A DNA stretch of 23,626 nucleotides, from the IMG/VR virus record IMGVR_UViG_3300034200_001412, positions 1-23,626 of that record, one strand, 5' to 3'. The stretch is from a virus. The notes below the pieces were generated by a model. The model made no database searches and was not told the DNA's origin. It worked only from the letters and a program-made list of their open reading frames with translations. The position numbers and the translations under genes were made by a program. Below, one piece after another: positions 1,427-22,902 of this stretch (positions are counted from its first letter, which is position 1; the number at the start of each line of letters is the position of its first letter).

Positions 1427-1850
1427 AAAACAAGCAGAGAAACTGGAAAAAATATTAGAAGAGGAATTTAATAAAAAAGTTCCTCTACTAGTTGTTAATA
1501 AAAACTGTTTATTATATAAACATTATAAAATTAAAAAGAACGTATTAGAAAACTGGGATTTACAAGATCAGAGCGGTCGTATAATAGAAACTTTTAAATT
1601 AAAAGTGAATGCTGCTCTAGCAGCAAAATTTTATGATAGAAATCAGATAGAAAAGTTTAACGAAGTAAAAAACTTAGATACGAAATATTGGACTAATATA
1701 ATTGATTCTTTAATTTTTAGAGAAAAATGCAATAAAACTAAGGACATGATAAAGAAAGATATATATATTTCTAGATGGGATATTACAAAAACTAGAGCAG
1801 AACAATATAAACTAGAAATTTCAAAGCTCTTTAGTTATAATTTCGGATAA
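1416..1850 (+). CDS. Conserved hypothetical phage protein (144 aa)
   Basis: The 144-residue protein is basic and Lys/Asn-rich. It starts with a charged helix (about residues 2-20). Its central segment, with an ALAAKFYDRN stretch followed by FNEVKNLDTKYW, resembles from memory a conserved unknown family of cyanophages and pelagiphages. The C-terminus has a predicted amphipathic helix with several Arg/Lys residues (about 120-140). No enzyme motif is visible. It overlaps the previous gene by 11 nt and ends inside the late-promoter-like element preceding the next gene. Confidence 0.75.
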   Translation: MNFKKQAEKLEKILEEEFNKKVPLLVVNKNCLLYKHYKIKKNVLENWDLQDQSGRIIETFKLKVNAALAAKFYDRNQIEKFNEVKNLDTKYWTNIIDSLIFREKCNKTKDMIKKDIYISRWDITKTRAEQYKLEISKLFSYNFG

Positions 1851-2787: not shown

Positions 2788-3107
2788 TGGAGAGCGCGGA
2801 CCTAGTTCGCGTTCTTTCTAGTCTTCAACATAGAGCTAATTCAAAAAAAGCCACATCTAAATTTAGTTGGGATGCTATCAGCAAGATTTATCAAAATGTA
2901 ACAGGTCAGGATTTAGACTATGATACATTTAAAATGATTTTTGATAAAGATCCTAACGTAAAAAATTTAGTTCAAAACTTTAGCAGCTACGGTATTACTA
3001 TTAAAACTAAAGAAAAAGAACCACCTACAGAATTAGGTCAAAAACCTCAAACAAACAATGCAGATGCAGTAAGAGCTGCTAATAATGTTCTCCAACAACC
3101 AGGTTGA
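2787..3107 (+). CDS. Hypothetical protein (106 aa)
   Basis: The start codon uses the last base of the preceding stop (TAATG), so translation is coupled to the 301-aa protein. Residues 1-80 look like a compact helical domain with a FSWDAISKIYQNVTG helix and a YDTFKMIFDKD helix; the last 25 residues are polar and probably flexible. No family is recognised. Its 3' end overlaps the -35 box of the promoter at 3104-3132, so a new transcription unit begins at its stop codon. Confidence 0.7.
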   Translation: MESADLVRVLSSLQHRANSKKATSKFSWDAISKIYQNVTGQDLDYDTFKMIFDKDPNVKNLVQNFSSYGITIKTKEKEPPTELGQKPQTNNADAVRAANNVLQQPG

Positions 3108-3882: not shown

Positions 3883-5499
3883 ATGGCCGTAGTTCAAATT
3901 AGCCGCATACAACTTAGACGCGGTAAAGAAAGTGAAACAGGAATTCCACAATTAGCCAGCGGAGAACTTGCATGGGCTATTGACACTCAGAAATTATACA
4001 TTGGTAATGGTGCAGTTAGTGAAGGCGCACCTACTGTTGGTAATACACGAATTATTACTGATGCAGACAACTTGTTAGATATAGCCACTAGCTATACATA
4101 TAAAGTTGATGATCCTAATATTTTAACATCTGACGATGTAAATTACCCAATCACTCGAACATTACAAGAACGATTAGATGAACGTGTAACTGCTGCTTCC
4201 TATGGTATCTATCCTGGATTAGAAGATCAAACAGTAAACATTCAACGTGCTATTGATAATCTGTATCTTAATAAATCTACAATGTTTAATCCAGAGACCA
4301 GAGTAACTTTAGAATTTGCGGCTGGAACGTACTATATCAGTGATACAATTTTTCTACCTAGCCATGTTAGATTAGTAGGTGCAGGTATAAAGAAAACTAT
4401 TTTTCAATTCACATCAGTAAGTAAAACAGTTTTTAGATTTATTGAAGATCAATCTACAACAACTAATAGAAGAGCGATCACATATCCTGTAGGAATTAAT
4501 CCTGGAACACCTGTATTCAATGATCAGCCAAAATTTATTTTACTTAAGGATTTTACTTTAGATGTAGGCGACAATACTAATCAAGCACTACAATTAAATG
4601 CAGTTAGAGACAGTGTATTTGAAGATTTAGAAATAAAAGGAACATTCGATGATAGTACGTTGTCAGGTACTGATAACAGTATCGCTATAGGATTATATGC
4701 ATTAAGTTCCATAGTAACTTGTCAAAGAAACGAATTTAATCGTATCGACATTGAAGGATTTAAACGAGCAGTATTCAGTAAAACAGATATTAAAAATAAT
4801 GTTTTCAATAATTGTAATATTTCAGAATGCGGTGTAGGGTTTAGTTTTGGAGATAACACTGGAGGCAGTCCTTTAGTAGGCGAACAGTATGGTCCAAGAT
4901 TTAATCATATTTTAGATTGTGCGTTCGAAGATATCGACGAACACGGAATTTATATTGAAACTGGATACGGTAATAGATCAAGAGGCAATACTTTTATCAA
5001 TGTAGGCAATGACAGAGGCGGAAACAGTAATAATCAAACTAGTAATATAGCATTTATAGCACAAGGCAATTCTAGTCTTCAAGAAAATTTTGATAGACAA
5101 TACGCATTAACCGGAAATCAAGTAGATACATACTTGCCTGAGGTTTCTGGAATCGCATTGTACTCAAATAGTCAACCAAGATCAATTATTTTAGAAACTA
5201 ATTTTACCGAAACTTTTGCCTTTAGATTACCAATATCTCAAACTATGGGATATGAAATAAATTATGTAACAAAATGCACAAGCCCAGTAGAAACAAGACG
5301 AGGTAAAATTACAGTTGCGGTAAACTACTCAAGTGGCGGTGTACAACTATCGGACGATTTTGATTATACCGGATCTGGAGATTTTTATAACATAAGTTTT
5401 AGTGCAACTAAATCCGGTAATGATGTTATTATCAAATATGTTAATGTAAATGTCAGTAACCAAACTACATTTATCTACACATATCAAGCACTTAGTTAA
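3883..5499 (+). CDS. Tail fibre/spike-like protein with beta-helix
   Basis: The 538-residue protein opens with a domain typical of phage receptor-binding or baseplate-attached fibres: QISRIQLRRGKE, QLASGELAWAIDT, then KLYIGNG (about residues 5-45), resembling the N-terminal fold of phage tropism determinants. From about residue 105 it changes to a pectate-lyase-like right-handed beta-helix: the entry helix VNIQRAIDNLY, LEFAAGTYYISDTI and LPSHVRLVGAG, then many short Asn/Ile/Phe-rich rungs to about 380. The last 120 residues are beta-rich, possibly a trimer tip. I see no convincing catalytic triad, so enzymatic depolymerase activity is not claimed. A late promoter precedes it. Confidence 0.75.
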   Translation: MAVVQISRIQLRRGKESETGIPQLASGELAWAIDTQKLYIGNGAVSEGAPTVGNTRIITDADNLLDIATSYTYKVDDPNILTSDDVNYPITRTLQERLDERVTAASYGIYPGLEDQTVNIQRAIDNLYLNKSTMFNPETRVTLEFAAGTYYISDTIFLPSHVRLVGAGIKKTIFQFTSVSKTVFRFIEDQSTTTNRRAITYPVGINPGTPVFNDQPKFILLKDFTLDVGDNTNQALQLNAVRDSVFEDLEIKGTFDDSTLSGTDNSIAIGLYALSSIVTCQRNEFNRIDIEGFKRAVFSKTDIKNNVFNNCNISECGVGFSFGDNTGGSPLVGEQYGPRFNHILDCAFEDIDEHGIYIETGYGNRSRGNTFINVGNDRGGNSNNQTSNIAFIAQGNSSLQENFDRQYALTGNQVDTYLPEVSGIALYSNSQPRSIILETNFTETFAFRLPISQTMGYEINYVTKCTSPVETRRGKITVAVNYSSGGVQLSDDFDYTGSGDFYNISFSATKSGNDVIIKYVNVNVSNQTTFIYTYQALS

Positions 5500-5657: not shown

Positions 5658-7994
5658 ATGTCGAACATCACTGTTATAAAAAGAAATGGAAAAAAAGAAT
5701 CTTTAACAATAGAAAAGTGGCAGACACAGATCGCCAAAGTATGCAGTGGAATTGCCGATGTTAGTCAAAGTATGATCGAAATTAAAAGTCAACCACATTT
5801 CTATGATGGTATTACTACTAAAGAAATTGACGAAATTACACTAAGAGCCATAGTTGATTTGATTGATATAGAAAGCAATCCAGATTTAGGACATACCAAT
5901 TATCAATATGTAGCAGGCAAACAGAGACTCAGTATGCTACGCAAAGATGTATATGGTGGATACGAGCCTCCTCACCTTTACGAAATCGTAAAGAAAAATG
6001 TTGCTACAGGATTGTACACAGAAGAATTGTTGTCCTGGTATACAGAAGAAGATTGGAACAAAATGAATGATATGATAGATCATTCAAAAGATGAACAATA
6101 TTCGTATGCTGCTATTGAACAACTGATTGAAAAATATCTAGTCAAGAATCGTAGCACCAAGGAAATATATGAAACTCCTCAAGTTAGATATATGGTGGCA
6201 GCAGCTACAGTCTTTCATAAAGAAGAACCCAATCAAGCACGTATGCGATATATTAAAGAATATTATACAGCGGCCAGTGACGGTCTTTTTACTCTCGCTA
6301 CTCCCGTTCTTGCTGGTCTGGGAACACCAACCAAGCAATTTAGTAGCTGCGTCCTTATACGCAGCGATGATGACCTTGATAGTATCTTCGCTTCTGGAGA
6401 AATGATGGCTAAGTATGCTAGTAAACGTGCAGGAATTGGATTAGAAATTGGTCGACTACGTCCATTAGGCTCTCCGATTCGCGGTGGCGAAATCATGCAC
6501 ACTGGCATGCTGCCTTTTTTAAAAAAATGGTTCGCAGATTTAAGGAGTTGCAGTCAAGGTGGAATACGTAATGCTAGTGCTACTGTTTTTTATCCAATTT
6601 GGCATCATCAGTTTGATGATCTTATCGTGCTTAAGAATAATCAAGGCACAGACGAGACCCGAGTCAGACACATGGACTACGGAGTGGTATTGTCTGCTTT
6701 CTTCTGGCGCAGATTTAAAAATAAAGAATCCATTACTTTCTTTGATCCCAACGAAGTACCAGACCTTTATGAAGCTTTCTACACAAACACGAAACGGTTT
6801 GAAGATTTATACATCAAGTACGAGAAAGTATCTGGTCTGCGCAAGAAAGTTATATCAGCAGAAGAAGTTTTTAAATCTGGAATTTTAAAAGAACGCACAG
6901 ACACGGGTCGTATCTATCTTGTGTTTATAGATAATGTGATGAATCAAGGACCATTTGATCCTGAGTATCATACGATATATCAAAGTAACCTATGTTGTGA
7001 AATATTGTTGCCCACTAAGGCATTTAAAAGATTAGATGACGAAGAAGGACGTATTGCCCTATGCACCCTGGGTTCAATCAACTGGGGTGCCTTTCGTAAC
7101 CCGGAAGATATGCGACGTGCTTGTCGCATCTTACAACGTAGTCTATGTAACATACTGGACTATCAAGATTTCTTATCAATTCAGAGTAAACTGAGCAATG
7201 ACGAAATTCAACCTTTGGGTATTGGTGTTACTAATCTTGCTTATTGGCATGCTAAACGAGGTCTTAAATACGGAGAAACCGATGCATTGGGAGAGGTTAA
7301 AACCTGGATCGAGCATCAAGCTTACTACCTAACTGAAGCTACAGTAGAACTAGCCAAAGAAAGAGGCAAGTGTAAAGACAGCGATAAGACTAGATATGGA
7401 CAAGGTATTTTTCCTTGGGAACTACGAGCAGAAGGTGTAAACGAATTAACTAACTTTGCTCCTGAACTTGATTGGGAACCTCTACGTGCTGAAATGAAAC
7501 AGCATGGTGTTCGTAATGCTACACTAATGGCCATTGCTCCGGTTGAAAGTAGCAGTGTTGTTATAAACAGCACGAACGGTATTGAGATGCCCATGAGCTT
7601 AATCAGTGTTAAGGAAAGTAAAGCAGGTTCGTTTACACAAGTGGTTCCTGAGTATCACAGATTGAAAAACAAATATCAATTAATGTGGGATCAAAGAGAT
7701 TGTGCAGGATATATTAAAACTGCCGCAGTGTTAGCCGCCTATGTTGATCAAAGTATTAGTACAAATACTTTTTATAATCCTGCACATTATCAGGATCGCA
7801 AAGTGCCTACAACATTAATTGCAAAAAATTTAATGCAAGCGCATTATTGGGGGATTAAGACCTTCTATTATAGCTTGATTAATAAAACAGGATCTAAGAG
7901 TCAAGAAGATCTAGGCGAACCAAAGATGAACGGGTTCCATGAAATGGATTTAAGCTTGTTAGATGATGCAGACTGTGAGGCTTGTAAGCTGTGA
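5658..7994 (+). CDS. nrdA: Class Ia ribonucleoside-diphosphate reductase, alpha subunit
   Basis: This is the catalytic subunit that reduces ribonucleoside diphosphates to deoxynucleotides for phage DNA synthesis. It is full length (778 aa; E. coli NrdA is 761). An ATP-cone begins at VIKRNGKKESL (6-16). The active-site set is complete: C231 (in QFSSCVLI), N444/C446/E448 (in SNLCCEIL) and C469 (in ALCTLGSINW), each offset by six or seven from the E. coli residues. The radical-transfer Tyr pair is in IKTFYYS near 736, and the C-terminal shuttle cysteines are in DCEACKL. A superoxide dismutase-like gene, nrdB and a glutaredoxin follow with overlaps, so one operon probably supplies enzyme and reductant. 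Confidence 0.97.
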   Translation: MSNITVIKRNGKKESLTIEKWQTQIAKVCSGIADVSQSMIEIKSQPHFYDGITTKEIDEITLRAIVDLIDIESNPDLGHTNYQYVAGKQRLSMLRKDVYGGYEPPHLYEIVKKNVATGLYTEELLSWYTEEDWNKMNDMIDHSKDEQYSYAAIEQLIEKYLVKNRSTKEIYETPQVRYMVAAATVFHKEEPNQARMRYIKEYYTAASDGLFTLATPVLAGLGTPTKQFSSCVLIRSDDDLDSIFASGEMMAKYASKRAGIGLEIGRLRPLGSPIRGGEIMHTGMLPFLKKWFADLRSCSQGGIRNASATVFYPIWHHQFDDLIVLKNNQGTDETRVRHMDYGVVLSAFFWRRFKNKESITFFDPNEVPDLYEAFYTNTKRFEDLYIKYEKVSGLRKKVISAEEVFKSGILKERTDTGRIYLVFIDNVMNQGPFDPEYHTIYQSNLCCEILLPTKAFKRLDDEEGRIALCTLGSINWGAFRNPEDMRRACRILQRSLCNILDYQDFLSIQSKLSNDEIQPLGIGVTNLAYWHAKRGLKYGETDALGEVKTWIEHQAYYLTEATVELAKERGKCKDSDKTRYGQGIFPWELRAEGVNELTNFAPELDWEPLRAEMKQHGVRNATLMAIAPVESSSVVINSTNGIEMPMSLISVKESKAGSFTQVVPEYHRLKNKYQLMWDQRDCAGYIKTAAVLAAYVDQSISTNTFYNPAHYQDRKVPTTLIAKNLMQAHYWGIKTFYYSLINKTGSKSQEDLGEPKMNGFHEMDLSLLDDADCEACKL

Positions 7995-8545
7995 TGAGTT
8001 ATGAATTTATAAAAGGATTTATTGCAGAAGGCCGTAATGAAAAATTAAGTATTAAACCTTTGCCTTATAAAAAGGACGAACTAAATCCTAGCATAAGTGA
8101 AAATACAATTAACTATCATTACGAAAAGTTAGCTAAGACCTATGCCGAAAGATATAACAAAGGCGAAGGTGACCCTGTGTTCAATGAAGCAGGAGTATTT
8201 TTACACAACATTCTTTTTCAACAATATCAAGCACCGAACAACAAAAATAAACCAGAAGGTGCTATAGAAGAATTTATAAACAAACACTATAAATCCTTTG
8301 ATAAGTTTAAAGAAGAGTTTGAAAAAACAGCAATGAGTATACAAGGTAGCGGATGGGTATATCTTAGTAAAAGTGGTAAAATAAAAACAATAACAAATCA
8401 CGAAGTAAAAAAAGACATAGTACTATTGATAGACTGGTGGGAGCATTCTTGGGCTCTGGATTACCAAGCTGACAAAAAGAAGTATTTAGAAAACCAATGG
8501 AAAATAATTAATTGGAATCATATAAATGAGCAAACAACAATATAA
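7994..8545 (+). CDS. Iron/manganese superoxide dismutase-like protein
   Basis: The 183-residue product aligns with Fe/Mn superoxide dismutase, which dismutates superoxide to oxygen and peroxide. All four metal ligands are recognisable: H42 (NYHYEKL), H71 (VFLHNIL), D147 and H151 (IDWWEHSW). The family's Tyr34 equivalent is Y50, and the C-terminal LDYQADKKKYLENQW block is typical. Differences: the usual second-shell His pair after the first ligand is Leu-Ala (46-47), and the position that often carries Gln near TNH is His136. It has about 20 extra N-terminal residues and no signal peptide, so it is cytoplasmic. ATG 7994 overlaps the nrdA stop; a GTG at 7991 is a less likely start. Activity is not certain given the changes. 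Confidence 0.8.
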   Translation: MSYEFIKGFIAEGRNEKLSIKPLPYKKDELNPSISENTINYHYEKLAKTYAERYNKGEGDPVFNEAGVFLHNILFQQYQAPNNKNKPEGAIEEFINKHYKSFDKFKEEFEKTAMSIQGSGWVYLSKSGKIKTITNHEVKKDIVLLIDWWEHSWALDYQADKKKYLENQWKIINWNHINEQTTI

Positions 8546-12020: not shown

Positions 12021-12083
12021 ATGGGAAAGCAACTACGCAAAAGAGCAGCAAAAACTAAGGCAGCAAGTAGGAGAAAACGCTAA
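12021..12083 (+). CDS. Tiny basic peptide (20 aa), paralogue-like
   Basis: ATG 12021 follows AAGGAG (12010-12015) at ideal spacing. The product, MGKQLRKRAAKTKAASRRKR, has ten basic residues of 20. It shares the MG start and a KTKAA core with the preceding peptide, suggesting duplication or the same binding function. Its stop (TAA 12081-12083) overlaps the iscU ATG, and the iscU ribosome-binding site AGGAG (12069-12073) lies inside it, so translation of the two is coupled. No family recognised. Confidence 0.6.
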   Translation: MGKQLRKRAAKTKAASRRKR

Positions 12084-12505
12084 TGTCATATTCTGATCAA
12101 GTTATAGATCATTATGAGAATCCTCGTAATGTCGGCAAACTTGATAAGAACGACCCTACTGTAGGAACAGGATTAGTAGGAGCACCGGCTTGCGGAGATG
12201 TTCTGCAATTACAAATTAAAGTAGAAGATAATATCATCACTGATGCCAAATTCAAGACGTATGGCTGCGGCTCAGCGATTGCAAGTTCGTCGCTTGTTAC
12301 TACATGGCTCAAAGGTAAAAGTCTTGATGAAGCGAATGCCATCAAGAATTCGGAAATTGCCGAAGAGCTCGCATTACCACCTGTCAAAATACACTGTTCG
12401 ATTCTTGCAGAAGATGCAATAAAAGCAGCTTTATCGGATTATAAATCAAAACATGATTCAATTAACAGAAATAGCAGCCAAGAAAGTACAGCAGCAGTTA
12501 TCTAA
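12083..12505 (+). CDS. iscU: Fe-S cluster scaffold protein IscU
   Basis: IscU is the scaffold on which [2Fe-2S] clusters are assembled before transfer. All key residues are present: C37 and D39 (GAPACGDVL), C62 (YGCGSAIASSS) and H104/C105 (VKIHCSILAED). It also has the LPPVK loop (98-102), which in bacteria is the docking motif for the HscA chaperone. At 140 aa it is slightly longer than the usual 128; the extra C-terminal 20 residues overlap the iscA gene by 53 nt and are polar. No iscS or hscA is in the window, so sulfur donation must come from the host or elsewhere in the phage. Confidence 0.95.
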   Translation: MSYSDQVIDHYENPRNVGKLDKNDPTVGTGLVGAPACGDVLQLQIKVEDNIITDAKFKTYGCGSAIASSSLVTTWLKGKSLDEANAIKNSEIAEELALPPVKIHCSILAEDAIKAALSDYKSKHDSINRNSSQESTAAVI

Positions 12506-18206: not shown

Positions 18207-18788
18207 ATGCTATCTGATATAATGATAGATTTAGAGACTCTTGCCACCTCACCTAATGCAGCAGTATTGACAATTGGAGCTGTTAAATTTGATCCGTTTA
18301 GTAATGAACTCGATAGTCCTAGTTGTGAAAAATTTTATGTCAAAGTAGACATAGACAGTTGCGACGAATTAGAATTAGATGTTTCAAATGATACTCTAGA
18401 ATGGTGGAGTAAGCAGAGTAAAGAAGCACAAGAAGAAGCATTTAGTACAGAAGACAGGATTCATGTAAGAGAAGCCTTTAATCAATTGTATAAATTTTGT
18501 TGGGGAGCTAAACGTGTTTGGAGTCATGGTGCCGCTTTTGACACTGTTATTTGTGAAAATATTTTTAGAAAACTTAATAAGGCAATCCCTTGGAGTTTTT
18601 GGGAAGTTAGGGATACTAGAACGTTGTTTGATTTGGGCATTGACCCAAAAAGACCGCCGGTACTTAAACATCATGCTTTAGAAGATGCGTGGAACCAAGC
18701 AGTGGGAGTACAGAACGTTTTTCAAAGATTAAGGAGCAGTACACAATTTAATGGAAATTTAATACAACCTCTGGCAAATCAGAGATAA
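18207..18788 (+). CDS. DexA-like 3'-5' exonuclease (DEDDh family)
   Basis: The 193-residue protein has the acidic exonuclease motifs: D8-x-E10 in IMIDLETLAT, D112 in WSHGAAFDT, and H156/D160 in KHHALEDAWNQ. The TLEWWSKQS segment and length resemble T4 DexA and the Rv2179c-type exoribonuclease family. It degrades DNA or RNA from the 3' end using two metal ions; which nucleic acid is not decidable here. It may recycle host nucleic acid. The stop overlaps the late-promoter element preceding dnaK. Confidence 0.87.
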   Translation: MLSDIMIDLETLATSPNAAVLTIGAVKFDPFSNELDSPSCEKFYVKVDIDSCDELELDVSNDTLEWWSKQSKEAQEEAFSTEDRIHVREAFNQLYKFCWGAKRVWSHGAAFDTVICENIFRKLNKAIPWSFWEVRDTRTLFDLGIDPKRPPVLKHHALEDAWNQAVGVQNVFQRLRSSTQFNGNLIQPLANQR

Positions 18789-18791
18789 ATA
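18784..18791 (+). promoter_or_regulatory. T4-like late promoter element before dnaK
   Basis: GATAAATA at the exonuclease stop codon, the third copy of this octamer in the window. The transcript would begin near 18797-18798, at the base of the hairpin in the dnaK leader. Confidence 0.6.
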
Positions 18792-18796
18792 AGATT

Positions 18797-18834
18797 GTGC
18801 AGCGCCTTAAGGGTTGTACAAAGGACACGAGTCC
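18797..18834 (+). other. Structured RNA in the dnaK leader
   Basis: GTGCAGC (18797-18803) pairs with GTTGTAC (18813-18819) with two G-U pairs, enclosing CC-TTAA-GG (18805-18812). A second hairpin follows, GGAC (18823-18826), loop ACGA, GTCC (18831-18834). AAGATT (18791-18796) and AATCTT (18838-18843) could close the whole into a three-way junction if the transcript starts upstream. CCTTAA (18805-18810) is complementary to TTAAGG (18851-18856), which is part of the dnaK ribosome-binding site. Confidence 0.5.
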
Positions 18835-18838
18835 AAAA

Positions 18839-18862
18839 ATCTTGCTTAATTTAAGGAGAAAA
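18839..18862 (+). repeat. Chaperone leader box, copy 1 (before dnaK)
   Basis: Starts ATCTTGCTTAA, then TTT, then AAGGAGAAAA, ending 2 nt before the dnaK ATG. The copy at 20781-20804 differs at two of 24 positions. It includes the ribosome-binding site. Confidence 0.8.
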
Positions 18863-18864
18863 AC

Positions 18865-20742
18865 ATGAGCAAAATCATCGGTATCGATTTGGGTACTACT
18901 AATAGTTGTGTAGCAATAATTGAAAACGGTATAAGCAAAGTAATTGAAAATTCAGAAGGTGCTAGAACTACACCTAGTATTGTTGCTTATACTAATGAAG
19001 AAATCCTAGTCGGCGCACCAGCCAAACGTCAAGCAGTAACTAATCCAAAAAATACAATTCATGCATCAAAGCGTCTTATCGGACGTAAATTTAAAGAAGA
19101 CGCTGTACAAAAAGATATCAACTTAATGCCTTACGAGATCATGGAGGCTACTAACGGAGATGCTTGGATACGAGCTAATGGCAAAGAATTGGCTCCTCCA
19201 CAAGTTTCAGCGGAAGTACTACGTAAGATGAAGAAAACCGCAGAAGACTATCTTGGGCAAGAAGTAACACAGGCTGTTATCACTGTACCTGCTTACTTCA
19301 ACGATAGTCAGCGTCAAGCTACTAAAGATGCAGGAAAAATTGCAGGGCTAGAAGTTCTGCGTATTATTAACGAACCAACCGCAGCAGCTCTAGCCTATGG
19401 CGTCGATAAAACAGATAAACGTGATCGAAAAGTTGCTGTATATGATCTAGGTGGCGGTACTTTCGATATCAGCATTATAGAAATCGCTAACGTCGACGGA
19501 GATAAACAAATCGAAGTTCTTTCTACCAACGGCGATACATTCCTTGGCGGCGAAGACTTTGATAATAGAATTATGGATTATCTTGTATCTGAATTTAAGA
19601 AAGAGCAAGGTATTGACCTTAGTAAAGACGTCATGGCACTGCAACGTCTTAAAGAAGCAGCTGAACGTACAAAAATTGAATTGTCCAACAGTTCACAAAC
19701 TGATGTGAATCTTCCATATATCACTGCTGATGCTTCAGGTCCTAAGCATCTAAATCTTAAATTAACTAGAGCAAAATTAGAAAGTTTAGTAGAAGACTTA
19801 ATTCAAAGAAGTTTAGCACCTTGTCGTCAAGCAATGCAAGATGCAAAAGTTAGTGCTGCCGATATTGATGAAATTATTCTAGTCGGTGGGCAAACACGTA
19901 TGCCTAAAGTGCAAGAAGAAGTTGAAAAACTATTTGGTAAAGCACCACGTAAAGATGTTAATCCAGATGAAGCAGTTGCAGCTGGAGCAGCAGTACAAGG
20001 CGCAGTTCTAGGTGGAGATAGAAAAGACGTTCTGTTATTAGATGTGACTCCACTAAGTCTAGGCATTGAAACAATGGGAGGCATTTTTACTAAACTAATC
20101 AGTAAGAATACTACTATACCTACAAAACATAGTCAGGTATTTTCTACAGCCGAAGATAATCAGCCTGCGGTAACTATTAAAGTTGCACAAGGTGAACGCG
20201 AAATGTTTTCTTACAATAAGTTGTTAGGAGAATTTAATTTAGAAGGAATCGCTCCTGCACGTAGAGGCATGCCGCAGATTGAAGTGACATTGGATATAGA
20301 TGCTAATGGTATTATGCACGTGAGTGCCAAAGATAAGAACACAGGTAAAGAAAATAAAATTACCATTAAAAGCGATAGCGGATTAACTCCAGAAGAAATT
20401 GAACGTATGGTAAAGGACGCCGAAGCCAATGCAGACGAAGATCGTAAACAACGAGAGTTGATAGAAACACGAAATAATGCAGAAGGTATTATACATAACA
20501 TTCGTAGTGATATGAAAGAAGTTGAAACTCTTCTTACTGAAGAAGAAAAAACCAAAGTGAATGATGCTTGCAAAGTAGCTGAAGAAGCTTGTGCAGAATC
20601 AGACAAGGAAAAAATTAACGAATCTATCACTACACTTTTTGAAGTACAACAAATAGTTGCAACTGCAAAAAGTAAAAAGGAATCTTCAAGCGGAACTTCC
20701 GAAGATGTTGCAGTAGATGCAGAATTTAAGGAAACTGCTTAA
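18865..20742 (+). CDS. dnaK: Hsp70 chaperone DnaK
   Basis: The 625-residue protein is a complete DnaK. The ATPase domain (about 1-380) has the phosphate-1 loop [43 protein letters not shown] and the phosphate-2 loop [13 protein letters not shown], with [15 protein letters not shown]. The linker [17 protein letters not shown] leads to the substrate-binding domain and helical lid. The C-terminus, VDAEFKETA, is DnaK-like rather than HscA-like. DnaK folds newly made or damaged proteins with DnaJ and GrpE, which are not in this window, so host partners are needed. It may help capsid assembly or, by way of the IscU LPPVK loop, Fe-S transfer; both are inference. A late promoter and an elaborate leader precede it, and a terminator follows. 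Confidence 0.97.
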
Positions 20743-20747
20743 GAACT

Positions 20748-20778
20748 ATATTTGACGCCATTGGGTCAAATATTTTTA
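20748..20778 (+). terminator. Intrinsic terminator after dnaK
   Basis: ATATTTGAC (20748-20756) and GTCAAATAT (20765-20773) form a perfect 9-bp stem with an 8-nt loop, followed by a T-rich run. It starts 5 nt after the dnaK stop, so hsp20 probably needs its own transcription or read-through. Confidence 0.85.
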
Positions 20779-20780
20779 TT

Positions 20781-20804
20781 ATCTTGCTTAAATAAAGGAG
20801 AAAA
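20781..20804 (+). repeat. Chaperone leader box, copy 2 (before hsp20)
   Basis: ATCTTGCTTAA, then ATA, then AAGGAGAAAA, 3 nt before the hsp20 ATG. It is 22 of 24 identical to the copy before dnaK. In this copy CTTAAATA (20787-20794) also resembles a late promoter. Confidence 0.8.
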
Positions 20805-20807
20805 GAA

Positions 20808-21257
20808 ATGACAATGAATGGAACTTTAACACGTTTTGATACAACGGCCTTGAATAAGGCATTGGTAGGATTTGATAGATTATTTGATACTTTTGAAACA
20901 AGGTTTGCAAATCAACTATCAACAAATTATCCTCCACATAATATTATAAAAACAGATGATACTCATTATCAAATTGAAATAGCAATTGCAGGTTTCAAGA
21001 AAAATGAAATTAGTATCGAAGTTGAACAAGAGATTCTAACTGTAAAGGGAGAATCAGAAACACCTAATGAAAATACTGTTAAACAGTACTTACATCGTGG
21101 ACTAAGCAGTAGAAGCTTTGTAAGAAGTTGGCAACTTGCAGAACACATGGTTGTTAACGGTGCTGAAATCAAAGATGGTATCTTGACTATTAATCTAGAA
21201 TACATTATTCCAGAAGAAAAGAAAGCCAGGGTAATTGACATTGTAGAAGTTAAGTAA
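20808..21257 (+). CDS. Small heat-shock protein, Hsp20/IbpA type
   Basis: The 149-residue protein is a class A small heat-shock protein. It has the IbpA-like N-terminus (LVGFDRLFDTFETRF), the YPPHNIIKTDDTHYQIEIAIAG strand set that opens the alpha-crystallin domain, the EILTVKGE strand, a RSFVRSWQL loop, and the C-terminal GILTINLEYIIPEE before a short tail. Such proteins bind unfolded proteins without ATP and hand them to DnaK, encoded just upstream. The start is fixed by AAAGGAG seven bases upstream. Its 3' end holds the -35 box of the clpS promoter. Confidence 0.95.
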   Translation: MTMNGTLTRFDTTALNKALVGFDRLFDTFETRFANQLSTNYPPHNIIKTDDTHYQIEIAIAGFKKNEISIEVEQEILTVKGESETPNENTVKQYLHRGLSSRSFVRSWQLAEHMVVNGAEIKDGILTINLEYIIPEEKKARVIDIVEVK

Positions 21258-21263
21258 TATAAT
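21235..21263 (+). promoter_or_regulatory. Consensus sigma70-type promoter for clpS
   Basis: TTGACA (21235-21240), 17 nt, TATAAT (21258-21263): a perfect match, overlapping the hsp20 stop. The transcript would start near 21270, about 39 nt before clpS. Confidence 0.85.
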
Positions 21264-21265
21264 AC

Positions 21266-21286
21266 AAGGGGACTTTATGTCCCCTT
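21266..21286 (+). promoter_or_regulatory. Hairpin at the start of the clpS transcript
   Basis: AAGGGGAC (21266-21273) and GTCCCCTT (21279-21286) make a perfect 8-bp stem with a TTTAT loop. There is no T-tract after it, so it is a weak terminator candidate; it may instead stabilise the RNA or act as an operator next to the promoter. Confidence 0.6.
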
Positions 21287-21308
21287 ATAAACATCACAGG
21301 AGTTAAAC

Positions 21309-21614
21309 ATGTCTGTAGAACACGACGTAAAAATTGACGAAAAAATCAAACAAAATATACAAGAACCAAAACGTTGGAAAGTGATTTTGTTAAATGACGA
21401 TTATACTCCAATGGATTTTGTAATTTCCGTATTAACTACAATATTTAAACACAGCCAAGATACTGCTAAAGATATTACAATGCAGATACATAATGAAGGA
21501 AGTGGAATTGCTGGAGTTTACACTTTTGAAATTGCAGAAGTAAAAGCAGTCGAAGCAACTTCAATTTCTAGATCTCAAGGGTTTCCTTTACAAATTAAAT
21601 TAGAAGAAGAATGA
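21309..21614 (+). CDS. clpS: ClpS-type adaptor of the Clp protease
   Basis: The 101-residue protein has the whole ClpS core: KRWKVILLNDDYTPMDFVIS (the N29-D30-D31 pocket), a helix ending HSQDTAKDITMQIHNEG (H61), and IAGVYTFEIAEVKAVEAT. In bacteria ClpS delivers N-end-rule substrates to ClpAP and blocks other ClpA substrates. Its N-degron pocket residues are retained, so it may redirect host proteolysis during infection. ClpA and ClpP are not in the window. It has a strong promoter and AGGAG at 21298-21302, and overlaps heme oxygenase by 4 nt. Confidence 0.95.
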   Translation: MSVEHDVKIDEKIKQNIQEPKRWKVILLNDDYTPMDFVISVLTTIFKHSQDTAKDITMQIHNEGSGIAGVYTFEIAEVKAVEATSISRSQGFPLQIKLEEE

Positions 21615-22153
21615 GTCTACGAGAAATAACTAAAGATTTGCACTCAGATGCAGAAAGAACAGTATTTGCCAAAAAGCTAGTTACAGGTTCTTTCACTAAA
21701 GAAGAATACGCTAACTATCTTTGGCAAATGGTACTGGTGTATAATGGTATCGAAACTGCGGCTAACAGTCAAGGAATGTTGAAAAATCTTCCTGACATTG
21801 AACGAGCACATAAGATTTATCAAGACTGTATTGAATTAGTAGGGCCTTATCATAATTTAACTTGGTTGCCTGAAACCATTAGCTATTGCAAGTATTTGTT
21901 AGATTTAAATTACGATCAAGAACGTAGACATTTAATCAAAGCTCATTTATATTGTCGCCATATGGGAGATTTATTTGGTGGGCAAATCATTGCAAAGAAA
22001 TGTCCAGGTCAAGGTCGATTTTATCAATTCAAAGATGCGGAAAATTTAAAAACTGCTATACGTGCTGAATTAACAGACGACCTTGGTGACGAAGCAAAGG
22101 TCGCTTTTCAATGGGCTATTAAGATAATGAAAGCATTGGTTAGAGAAGAATGA
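21611..22153 (+). CDS. Biliverdin-producing heme oxygenase
   Basis: The 180-residue helical protein has the proximal heme ligand H11 (TKDLHSDAE), the WQMVLVYNGIE helix and the distal GDLFGGQ segment (119-125; usually GDLSGGQ) that contacts heme. These enzymes open heme to biliverdin, CO and iron using reducing power from ferredoxin or NADPH. In cyanophages ho1 is part of bilin synthesis, but no bilin reductase gene is seen here, so iron release is a better guess. It overlaps clpS by 4 nt and the desaturase by 4 nt, making a tight operon. Confidence 0.92.
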   Translation: MSLREITKDLHSDAERTVFAKKLVTGSFTKEEYANYLWQMVLVYNGIETAANSQGMLKNLPDIERAHKIYQDCIELVGPYHNLTWLPETISYCKYLLDLNYDQERRHLIKAHLYCRHMGDLFGGQIIAKKCPGQGRFYQFKDAENLKTAIRAELTDDLGDEAKVAFQWAIKIMKALVREE

Positions 22154-22902
22154 CCGGATTGGATTTAAATAAAGAATTTCGAGATTATTATTTAAAATTT
22201 AATCTTCCTTTACAAATTGTCGCAATTACAGCGACAATTTTTTTATCTTTTAATATAGTCAAAGTTCTTTTATTTACGATATTTTTTCATATTTTAATTT
22301 ATTGGGCAGGTATCCAATGTGGTTCTCATAAATTATTTTCTCATAAAAGTTGGATACCAAAATATAAATGGATCACTTATTCCATTGGCATTATTTCTTG
22401 TTTTGGAATCATGGGGGGTCCTATACTATGGAGTTTAATGCACAGGTGGCATCATGCACATAGTGATACTGATTTAGATCCACACAGTCCTAAACATGGA
22501 TACTTACATAGTTATTTTACATGGTTTTTAAACATTCCACATGTACCTCTAAGAATAATAAAAGACCATATTTTAGATTACAATTTGATACGTATTGATA
22601 GAAATTGTAAAAAAATTGTTTACATTACTTTACTTTTTTTAACAGTGCTAGATTACGAAATTGCATTAAGTCTATTACTCGCTATGGTAATCACTTTTCA
22701 TATAGAAATGAGTGTTAATTGTTTCGCTCATAAACAATTAGATGGGGAATGGAAAAGTGTTAACTATATAAGTTTAGCATTTATAACAGGAGGCAGCACT
22801 CTACATGCAAACCATCATGCAGATTCTTCAAATTGGAATTTTAGTAAAAAATGGTTTGAGCTTGATCCCAGTGCATGGATTATAAAATGTTTGAAAAAAT
22901 AA
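22150..22902 (+). CDS. Membrane fatty-acid (acyl) desaturase 1
   Basis: The 250-residue protein has the three histidine boxes of integral di-iron desaturases: H60-x4-H65 (GSHKLFSH), HRWHH (98-102) and HANHH (219-223), with the LDPHSPKHG stretch of delta-9-type enzymes. Four hydrophobic segments fit two hairpins in the membrane (about 20-40, 40-55, 75-92, 158-185). It would introduce a double bond in acyl chains, affecting membrane fluidity; it needs oxygen and an electron donor. It is shorter than many (about 300 aa), but all boxes are intact. A second, related desaturase begins inside its 3' end. Confidence 0.93.
   Translation: MTGLDLNKEFRDYYLKFNLPLQIVAITATIFLSFNIVKVLLFTIFFHILIYWAGIQCGSHKLFSHKSWIPKYKWITYSIGIISCFGIMGGPILWSLMHRWHHAHSDTDLDPHSPKHGYLHSYFTWFLNIPHVPLRIIKDHILDYNLIRIDRNCKKIVYITLLFLTVLDYEIALSLLLAMVITFHIEMSVNCFAHKQLDGEWKSVNYISLAFITGGSTLHANHHADSSNWNFSKKWFELDPSAWIIKCLKK

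Follow-up and report, generated by a model that had tools for sequence, protein, structure and literature searches.

A ROSE-type leader upstream of phage dnaK and its possible reading by the phage's own Hsp20

ROSE elements are defined by a U(U/C)GCU motif that pairs with the Shine-Dalgarno (SD) sequence and, in the short elements, by a stable first hairpin (PMC3669281). In E. coli, translation of the ibpA mRNA is repressed by IbpA itself through the 5' UTR, which requires Arg93; the protein seems to favor structured RNAs, thermometers being an example (PMC10474464). Among phage mRNAs, the lambda cIII leader forms two mutually exclusive folds, and its translation is lowered at high temperature (PMC4166951). 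In the open-access literature we found no paper that connects cyanophage hsp20 or phage dnaK with ROSE elements or other thermometers.

The leader described here precedes dnaK in a 23,626-nt (23.6 kb) virus record, IMGVR_UViG_3300034200_001412, the whole of which is referred to as the window. Leaders of this type resemble ROSE thermometers (RF02523 ROSE_3 and the short Pseudomonas ibpA elements) in their stable first hairpin with a GAUGCC..GGGUC-type top and one bulged purine, in the U(U/C)GCU opposite AGGA in the next hairpin, and in their association with hsp20 control. Unlike known ROSE elements, they are phage-encoded, stand behind late-type promoters and occur on dnaK and groES besides hsp20, and one class, carrying UUACU, replaces the signature G. 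As in the IbpA self-repression of E. coli and other gammaproteobacteria, there is an IbpA-like Hsp20 that carries the essential Arg93 and whose own gene has a ROSE-type leader; in the phages, however, dnaK and groES are among the proposed targets, and residue 54 appears to be where specificity varies. FourU thermometers likewise occlude the SD with a hairpin before a heat-shock gene, but the phage leader has no four-U run opposite the SD, the pairing strand being CUUGCUU. The lambda cIII leader is similar as a phage mRNA with a temperature-sensitive ribosome-binding site and, unlike the phage chaperone leaders, lacks the ROSE motif. We propose, with a probability of roughly 0.68, that the dnaK leader is a ROSE-type, thermometer-like translational control element of a phage chaperone regulon read by the phage's Hsp20, with the heat response and the binding inferred from sequence. 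We speak of a chaperone regulon because the same element precedes hsp20 here and groES in some relatives.

Structure of the dnaK and hsp20 leaders

The plus strand of the window encodes dnaK (18865-20742; Hsp70, 625 aa; Pfam PF00012, E 1.1e-257) and hsp20 (20808-21257; 149 aa; Pfam PF00011, E 5.7e-19), and an identical DnaK is encoded on a 165.8-kb contig. Host-like phage genes in the window code for a Fe/Mn superoxide dismutase, a NifU-like scaffold, ClpS, a heme oxygenase and a fatty-acid desaturase, the last a weak match (7991-8545, 12083-12505, 21309-21614, 21611-22153 and 22150-22902). A tail-fibre candidate at 3883-5499 combines a pectate-lyase-like domain with the N-terminal domain of a major tropism determinant.

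T4-like late promoters have a TATAAATA-type motif a few bases upstream of the start of transcription. The sequence GATAAATA at 18784-18791 on the plus strand, where the exonuclease gene upstream has its stop codon in overlap with it, resembles such a promoter, and each of the 79 related leaders has a motif of the form [ACGT][AC]TAAATA 45-100 nt ahead of dnaK. Within the window, GATAAATA alone is neither rarer nor commoner than chance, and it is given weight because it is conserved before dnaK. The transcript start that the original prediction had placed before dnaK is therefore reasonable, and transcription probably begins at this putative promoter. On the plus strand GATAAATA occurs at four gene ends (1846, 3854, 15932 and 18784), overlapping or adjoining stop codons. 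A scan of the window for sigma-70 consensus promoters gave no excess over shuffles; the gap between hsp20 and clpS (21235-21289) contains a perfect TTGACA-17-TATAAT match as well as an 11-pair terminator-like hairpin in minus-strand orientation.

Three hairpins were found in the dnaK leader, all on the plus strand. Hairpin 1 (18795-18821) has 11 pairs, a CC/GG top and one bulged purine at 18804, which is G here and A in other phages. Hairpin 2 (18823-18834; GGAC-ACGA-GTCC) is optional and occurs in about half of the relatives. In the SD hairpin (18840-18859), UCUU-G-CUU stands opposite AAGGAGA, so that the ROSE motif UUGCU (18842-18846) is imperfectly paired with AGGA (18854-18857) near the start codon. 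When the leader was folded alone, CUUGCUU (18841-18847) paired with the SD sequence AAGGAG (18853-18858), with one purine, G18844, left over. The fold of the 86-nt leader has a predicted energy of -22.2 kcal/mol (z -3.0), lower than that of 199 of 200 dinucleotide shuffles.

The hsp20 leader has two hairpins, so both leaders agree with the ROSE architecture of two to four hairpins, the first of them stable. Its hairpin 1 (20748-20773, plus strand) has a bulged G at 20757, and its SD hairpin (20781-20804, plus strand; ATCTTGCTTAAATAAAGGAGAAAA) is a 92% copy of the 24-nt block at 18839-18862. This element stands directly behind dnaK and is not preceded by a late-type promoter. That the hairpins merely shield a late mRNA at its 5' end, with no regulatory role, would suit leaders that begin right after a late-type promoter, as the dnaK leaders do. 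We regard this as very improbable, since the strand that occludes the SD hardly varies and is specific to chaperone genes and the hsp20 leader carries the element without such a promoter.

The Rfam models recognized these leaders to different degrees. Nothing in the window reached a gathering threshold, the 'freshwater-2' hit (RF02980, E 0.11) being not significant, and the dnaK leader gave no match to the ROSE families even at E 10. The hsp20 leader matched ROSE_3 (RF02523) with 26.8 bits (E 5.1e-4), below the curated cutoff of 43 bits; the leader of one phage relative scored 52.5 bits, above that cutoff. The window leaders are therefore named ROSE-type and are not placed in RF02523.

Relatives and gene specificity of the element

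Eighty phage DnaK loci were gathered, giving 79 leaders, of which 61 are non-identical. In all 61, a hairpin is formed by CU[U/C][G/A]CUU...AAGGAG, and the top of hairpin 1 follows the pattern Y-R-C-Y...R-G-G. The pairing strand reads CU[U/C]GCUU in 47, which thus carry UUGCU or UCGCU, and CUUACUU in the remaining 14, a UUACU class that falls outside the published U(U/C)GCU motif. In UUACU-class phages (e.g., L030, L032 and L065), codons 2-4 of dnaK are Ser-Lys-Ile, written TCT AAG ATC, which is complementary to GATCTTA in the leader; the UUGCU class uses AGC or AGT.

A covariance model built from 19 dnaK leaders found exactly two matches in the window, the dnaK leader (3e-20) and the hsp20 leader (20749-20806, E 9.3e-10). 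It also identified 163 places in 94 phage loci; in 11 large phage records there were two to three matches per record. In an alignment of 145 distinct leaders that was fitted to the structure, 96.1% of cells were paired vs 79.8% in shuffles, two-sided changes numbered 414 vs 120, and the covariation score was 0.460 vs 0.152, with slid registers reaching at most 0.092. Hairpin 1 showed two-sided changes in 8 of 10 pairs, its lower stem varying freely among relatives, and an unconstrained MAFFT alignment concurred, with two-sided changes in 7 of 9 pairs. Covariation proves hairpin 1 and not the SD hairpin, because the SD helix is nearly invariant; the predicted SD hairpin is supported by its conservation.

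These comparisons also bear on a switch that had been envisaged for this leader, in which CCTTAA (18805-18810) in the first hairpin would pair with TTAAGG (18851-18856) in the SD region as an off state. Both segments and the GGAC/GTCC hairpin at 18823-18834 lie where the original prediction put them, the two segments are indeed complementary over six bases, and a hairpin does enclose CCTTAA, although it extends over 11 pairs (18795-18821, bulged G at 18804) and not the 7 bp first described. Its CC sits in the covarying stem, however, leaving only TTAA as loop. CCTTAA occupies the hairpin-1 apex in one of the 61 non-identical leaders, others reading CCGTAA, CCAATA, CTTCGG and so on, and forcing CCUUAA to pair with UUAAGG cost 6.0 kcal/mol (-12.3 vs -18.3). 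On these grounds the switch was rejected, and we allow it next to no chance. The covariation check that had been suggested thus came out in favor of the leader, in which hairpin 1 covaries, and against the alternative pairing. The partner of the ribosome-binding site that is present in 61 of 61 leaders is CU[U/C][G/A]CUU; this local pairing, through CUUGCUU in the window, and the recurrence of the 24-nt block before hsp20 had been missed. The general idea of an RNA thermometer or a protein-controlled leader before a heat-shock gene appears well supported by the sequence comparisons.

Viral contigs were also scanned, blind to gene identity, for CTTGCTTA-N2-6-AAGGAGA (UUGCU..AAGGAGA). Of the 81 matches listed, from 80 loci, 76 preceded one of the two genes hsp20 and dnaK. 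As is typical of ROSE elements, most of these precede a small heat-shock gene (hsp20, 72 of 81), with dnaK (four matches) and, in some relatives, groES being additional. In contrast, control patterns with U or C in place of G (UUUCU and UUCCU) stood before hsp20 or dnaK in none of 80 matches listed for each. The A version, searched with a slightly different pattern, gave 56 chaperone genes among 88 matches listed (40 dnaK, 14 hsp20 and 2 groES). Pattern matches at L265 and L274 lack hairpin 1 and were taken as chance. All eight cultured phages examined, among them S-PM2, P-SSM4 and HTVC008M, have the element before hsp20, and bacterial hsp20 genes of Polynucleobacter, SAR11 and SAR86 are also preceded by it.

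In some relatives (L065, 1157-5600; L048 and L258; L008; L018), dnaK, groES and hsp20 lie in one cluster, and each gene has its own ROSE-type leader, with differing hairpin-1 stems. The element was also seen before genes for 88-90-aa proteins, in L086 (about 2809-2826, minus strand) and L798 (about 1500-1530, minus strand, in the record of L016), the latter being the one place checked outside the chaperone cluster among the 11 large phage records. These small proteins, which gave no significant Pfam match, are possible further members of the regulon.

Leader purines and residue 54 of Hsp20

Hairpin 1 and the SD hairpin have a local motif in common, in which a pyrimidine paired with G is followed by a bulged purine and then by C-G. 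In a canonical parse, which was used for the counts because an unbiased bulge finder misplaced several bulges, the purine bulged from hairpin 1 and the one opposite the SD were both G (G/G) in 143 elements and both A (A/A) in 70. The only mismatch in this parse is an overlapping double match in L007. In 90 of 92 loci with several elements the purines were uniform across genes, though hairpin-1 stems vary from gene to gene within a phage; the only real exceptions were L216 and L231.

The leader class was compared with the residues of 171 non-redundant phage Hsp20s over 136 alignment columns. Positions 54 and 93 are numbered on the E. coli IbpA sequence, in which R93 agrees with PMC10474464. The window Hsp20 has Ala at position 54 and Arg at position 93, and 134 of 138 phage Hsp20s, that of the window included, retain Arg93. 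Position 54 was Thr in 46 of the 49 proteins encoded in cis behind A-class leaders (the others being Ser) and Ala in 120 of the 122 behind G-class leaders (with one Ser and one Gly). The class overlap at this column was 0.008, and the next best of the 136 columns gave 0.189.

The same correspondence was seen in trans. In all 69 resolved cases the dnaK leader matched the Hsp20 encoded elsewhere on its contig (32 A/A with Thr54, 37 G/G with Ala54), with none crossed, and dnaK leaders in which hairpin 1 could not be resolved added six with Thr54 and four with Ala54. The groES leaders agreed as well (three A/A with Thr54, two G/G with Ala54; none crossed). Phages with Ser54 mostly had mixed leaders. 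In L216 the dnaK leader has an A bulge and a G in the motif; in L231/L679 the dnaK leader has the same combination and the hsp20 leader the reverse, a G bulge with an A in the motif, the L679 bulge having been read by eye. The Ser54 phage L723 is A/A and not mixed.

On an Hsp20 tree built with the position-54 column left out, the leader class must change five times or more, with four of these changes forced by supported branches, and none of 200 bootstrap trees had only one change. Residue 54 switched in accord with the leader class in four of four independent pairs, for which the sign test gives a p of only 0.125 because there are few independent pairs (four to five switches). On the DnaK tree, the class of the dnaK leader needs seven changes, two of them forced. 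Leader and gene may have moved together by recombination, yet each switch still changed both. Two leader bases thus covary with one Hsp20 residue, as if Hsp20 read the RNA.

Could the element act as a pure RNA thermometer, melted by heat and read by no protein, with the G/G or A/A coupling reflecting lineage history or contact between the hairpins of one RNA? In its favor, published thermometers have a matching motif and regulate reporters without any phage protein. Such a thermometer leaves without explanation, however, why dnaK and groES purines match a residue of an Hsp20 encoded elsewhere, why leaders of Ser54 phages are mixed, and why leader and residue switched jointly more than once; we consider it unlikely, though a serious alternative. 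We lean, somewhat beyond even odds, toward phage Hsp20 being a sequence-specific RNA-binding repressor of the hsp20/dnaK/groES regulon, which would read two copies of 5'-Y-R-C-Y...R-G-G-3' with residue 54 choosing R (Ala for G, Thr for A, Ser for both). The code would have switched several times, all leaders changing with the protein. The IbpA precedent for an Hsp20 reader is gammaproteobacterial, which counts against the phage reading.

Proposed control of the chaperone genes

In what we see as the most economical model, the transcript would begin at the late-type promoter, and hairpin 1 with its bulged purine and the SD hairpin would fold, with CUUGCUU covering AAGGAG. Translation would be poor until the SD hairpin opened, through warming or through the repressor being drawn away. 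The repressor would most likely be the phage's own IbpA-like Hsp20, bound to the two purine-marked hairpins; when busy with misfolded protein, it would release the leaders, which would constitute a feedback regulon.

For the temperature response we relied on folding predictions. With coding sequence included, predicted SD openness in related leaders rose from 0.44 at 5 C to 0.66 at 37 C, against 0.43 to 0.49 in control genes; across the family, nearest-neighbour folding gave no clear thermal switch and does not discriminate as proof of a thermometer. The window dnaK leader went from 0.05 to 0.85, its opening being predicted for the interval from 15 to 37 C, with the anti-SD strand moving to codons 1-3. 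This strand might be bistable, alternating between the SD and the first codons (UUGCUUA/UGAGCAA here; GAUCUUA/UAAGAUC in the UUACU class), as is predicted in the window with a switch near 25 C and as the fitting TCT AAG codons, nearly always found in the UUACU class, would allow. However, pairing between codons 2-4 and the anti-SD strand was not clearly enriched over synonymous recodings, the fold was not predicted for the window's hsp20 leader, and the codon choice may reflect lineage history; we think a bistable leader improbable.

The ROSE-type leaders would form a regulon in phages, cultured ones included, that reaches dnaK and groES. Since two leader purines change together with one Hsp20 residue, both sides of a possible contact can be named; the paired change also suggests that phages meter their chaperones by the folding load of the infection and not by heat alone.
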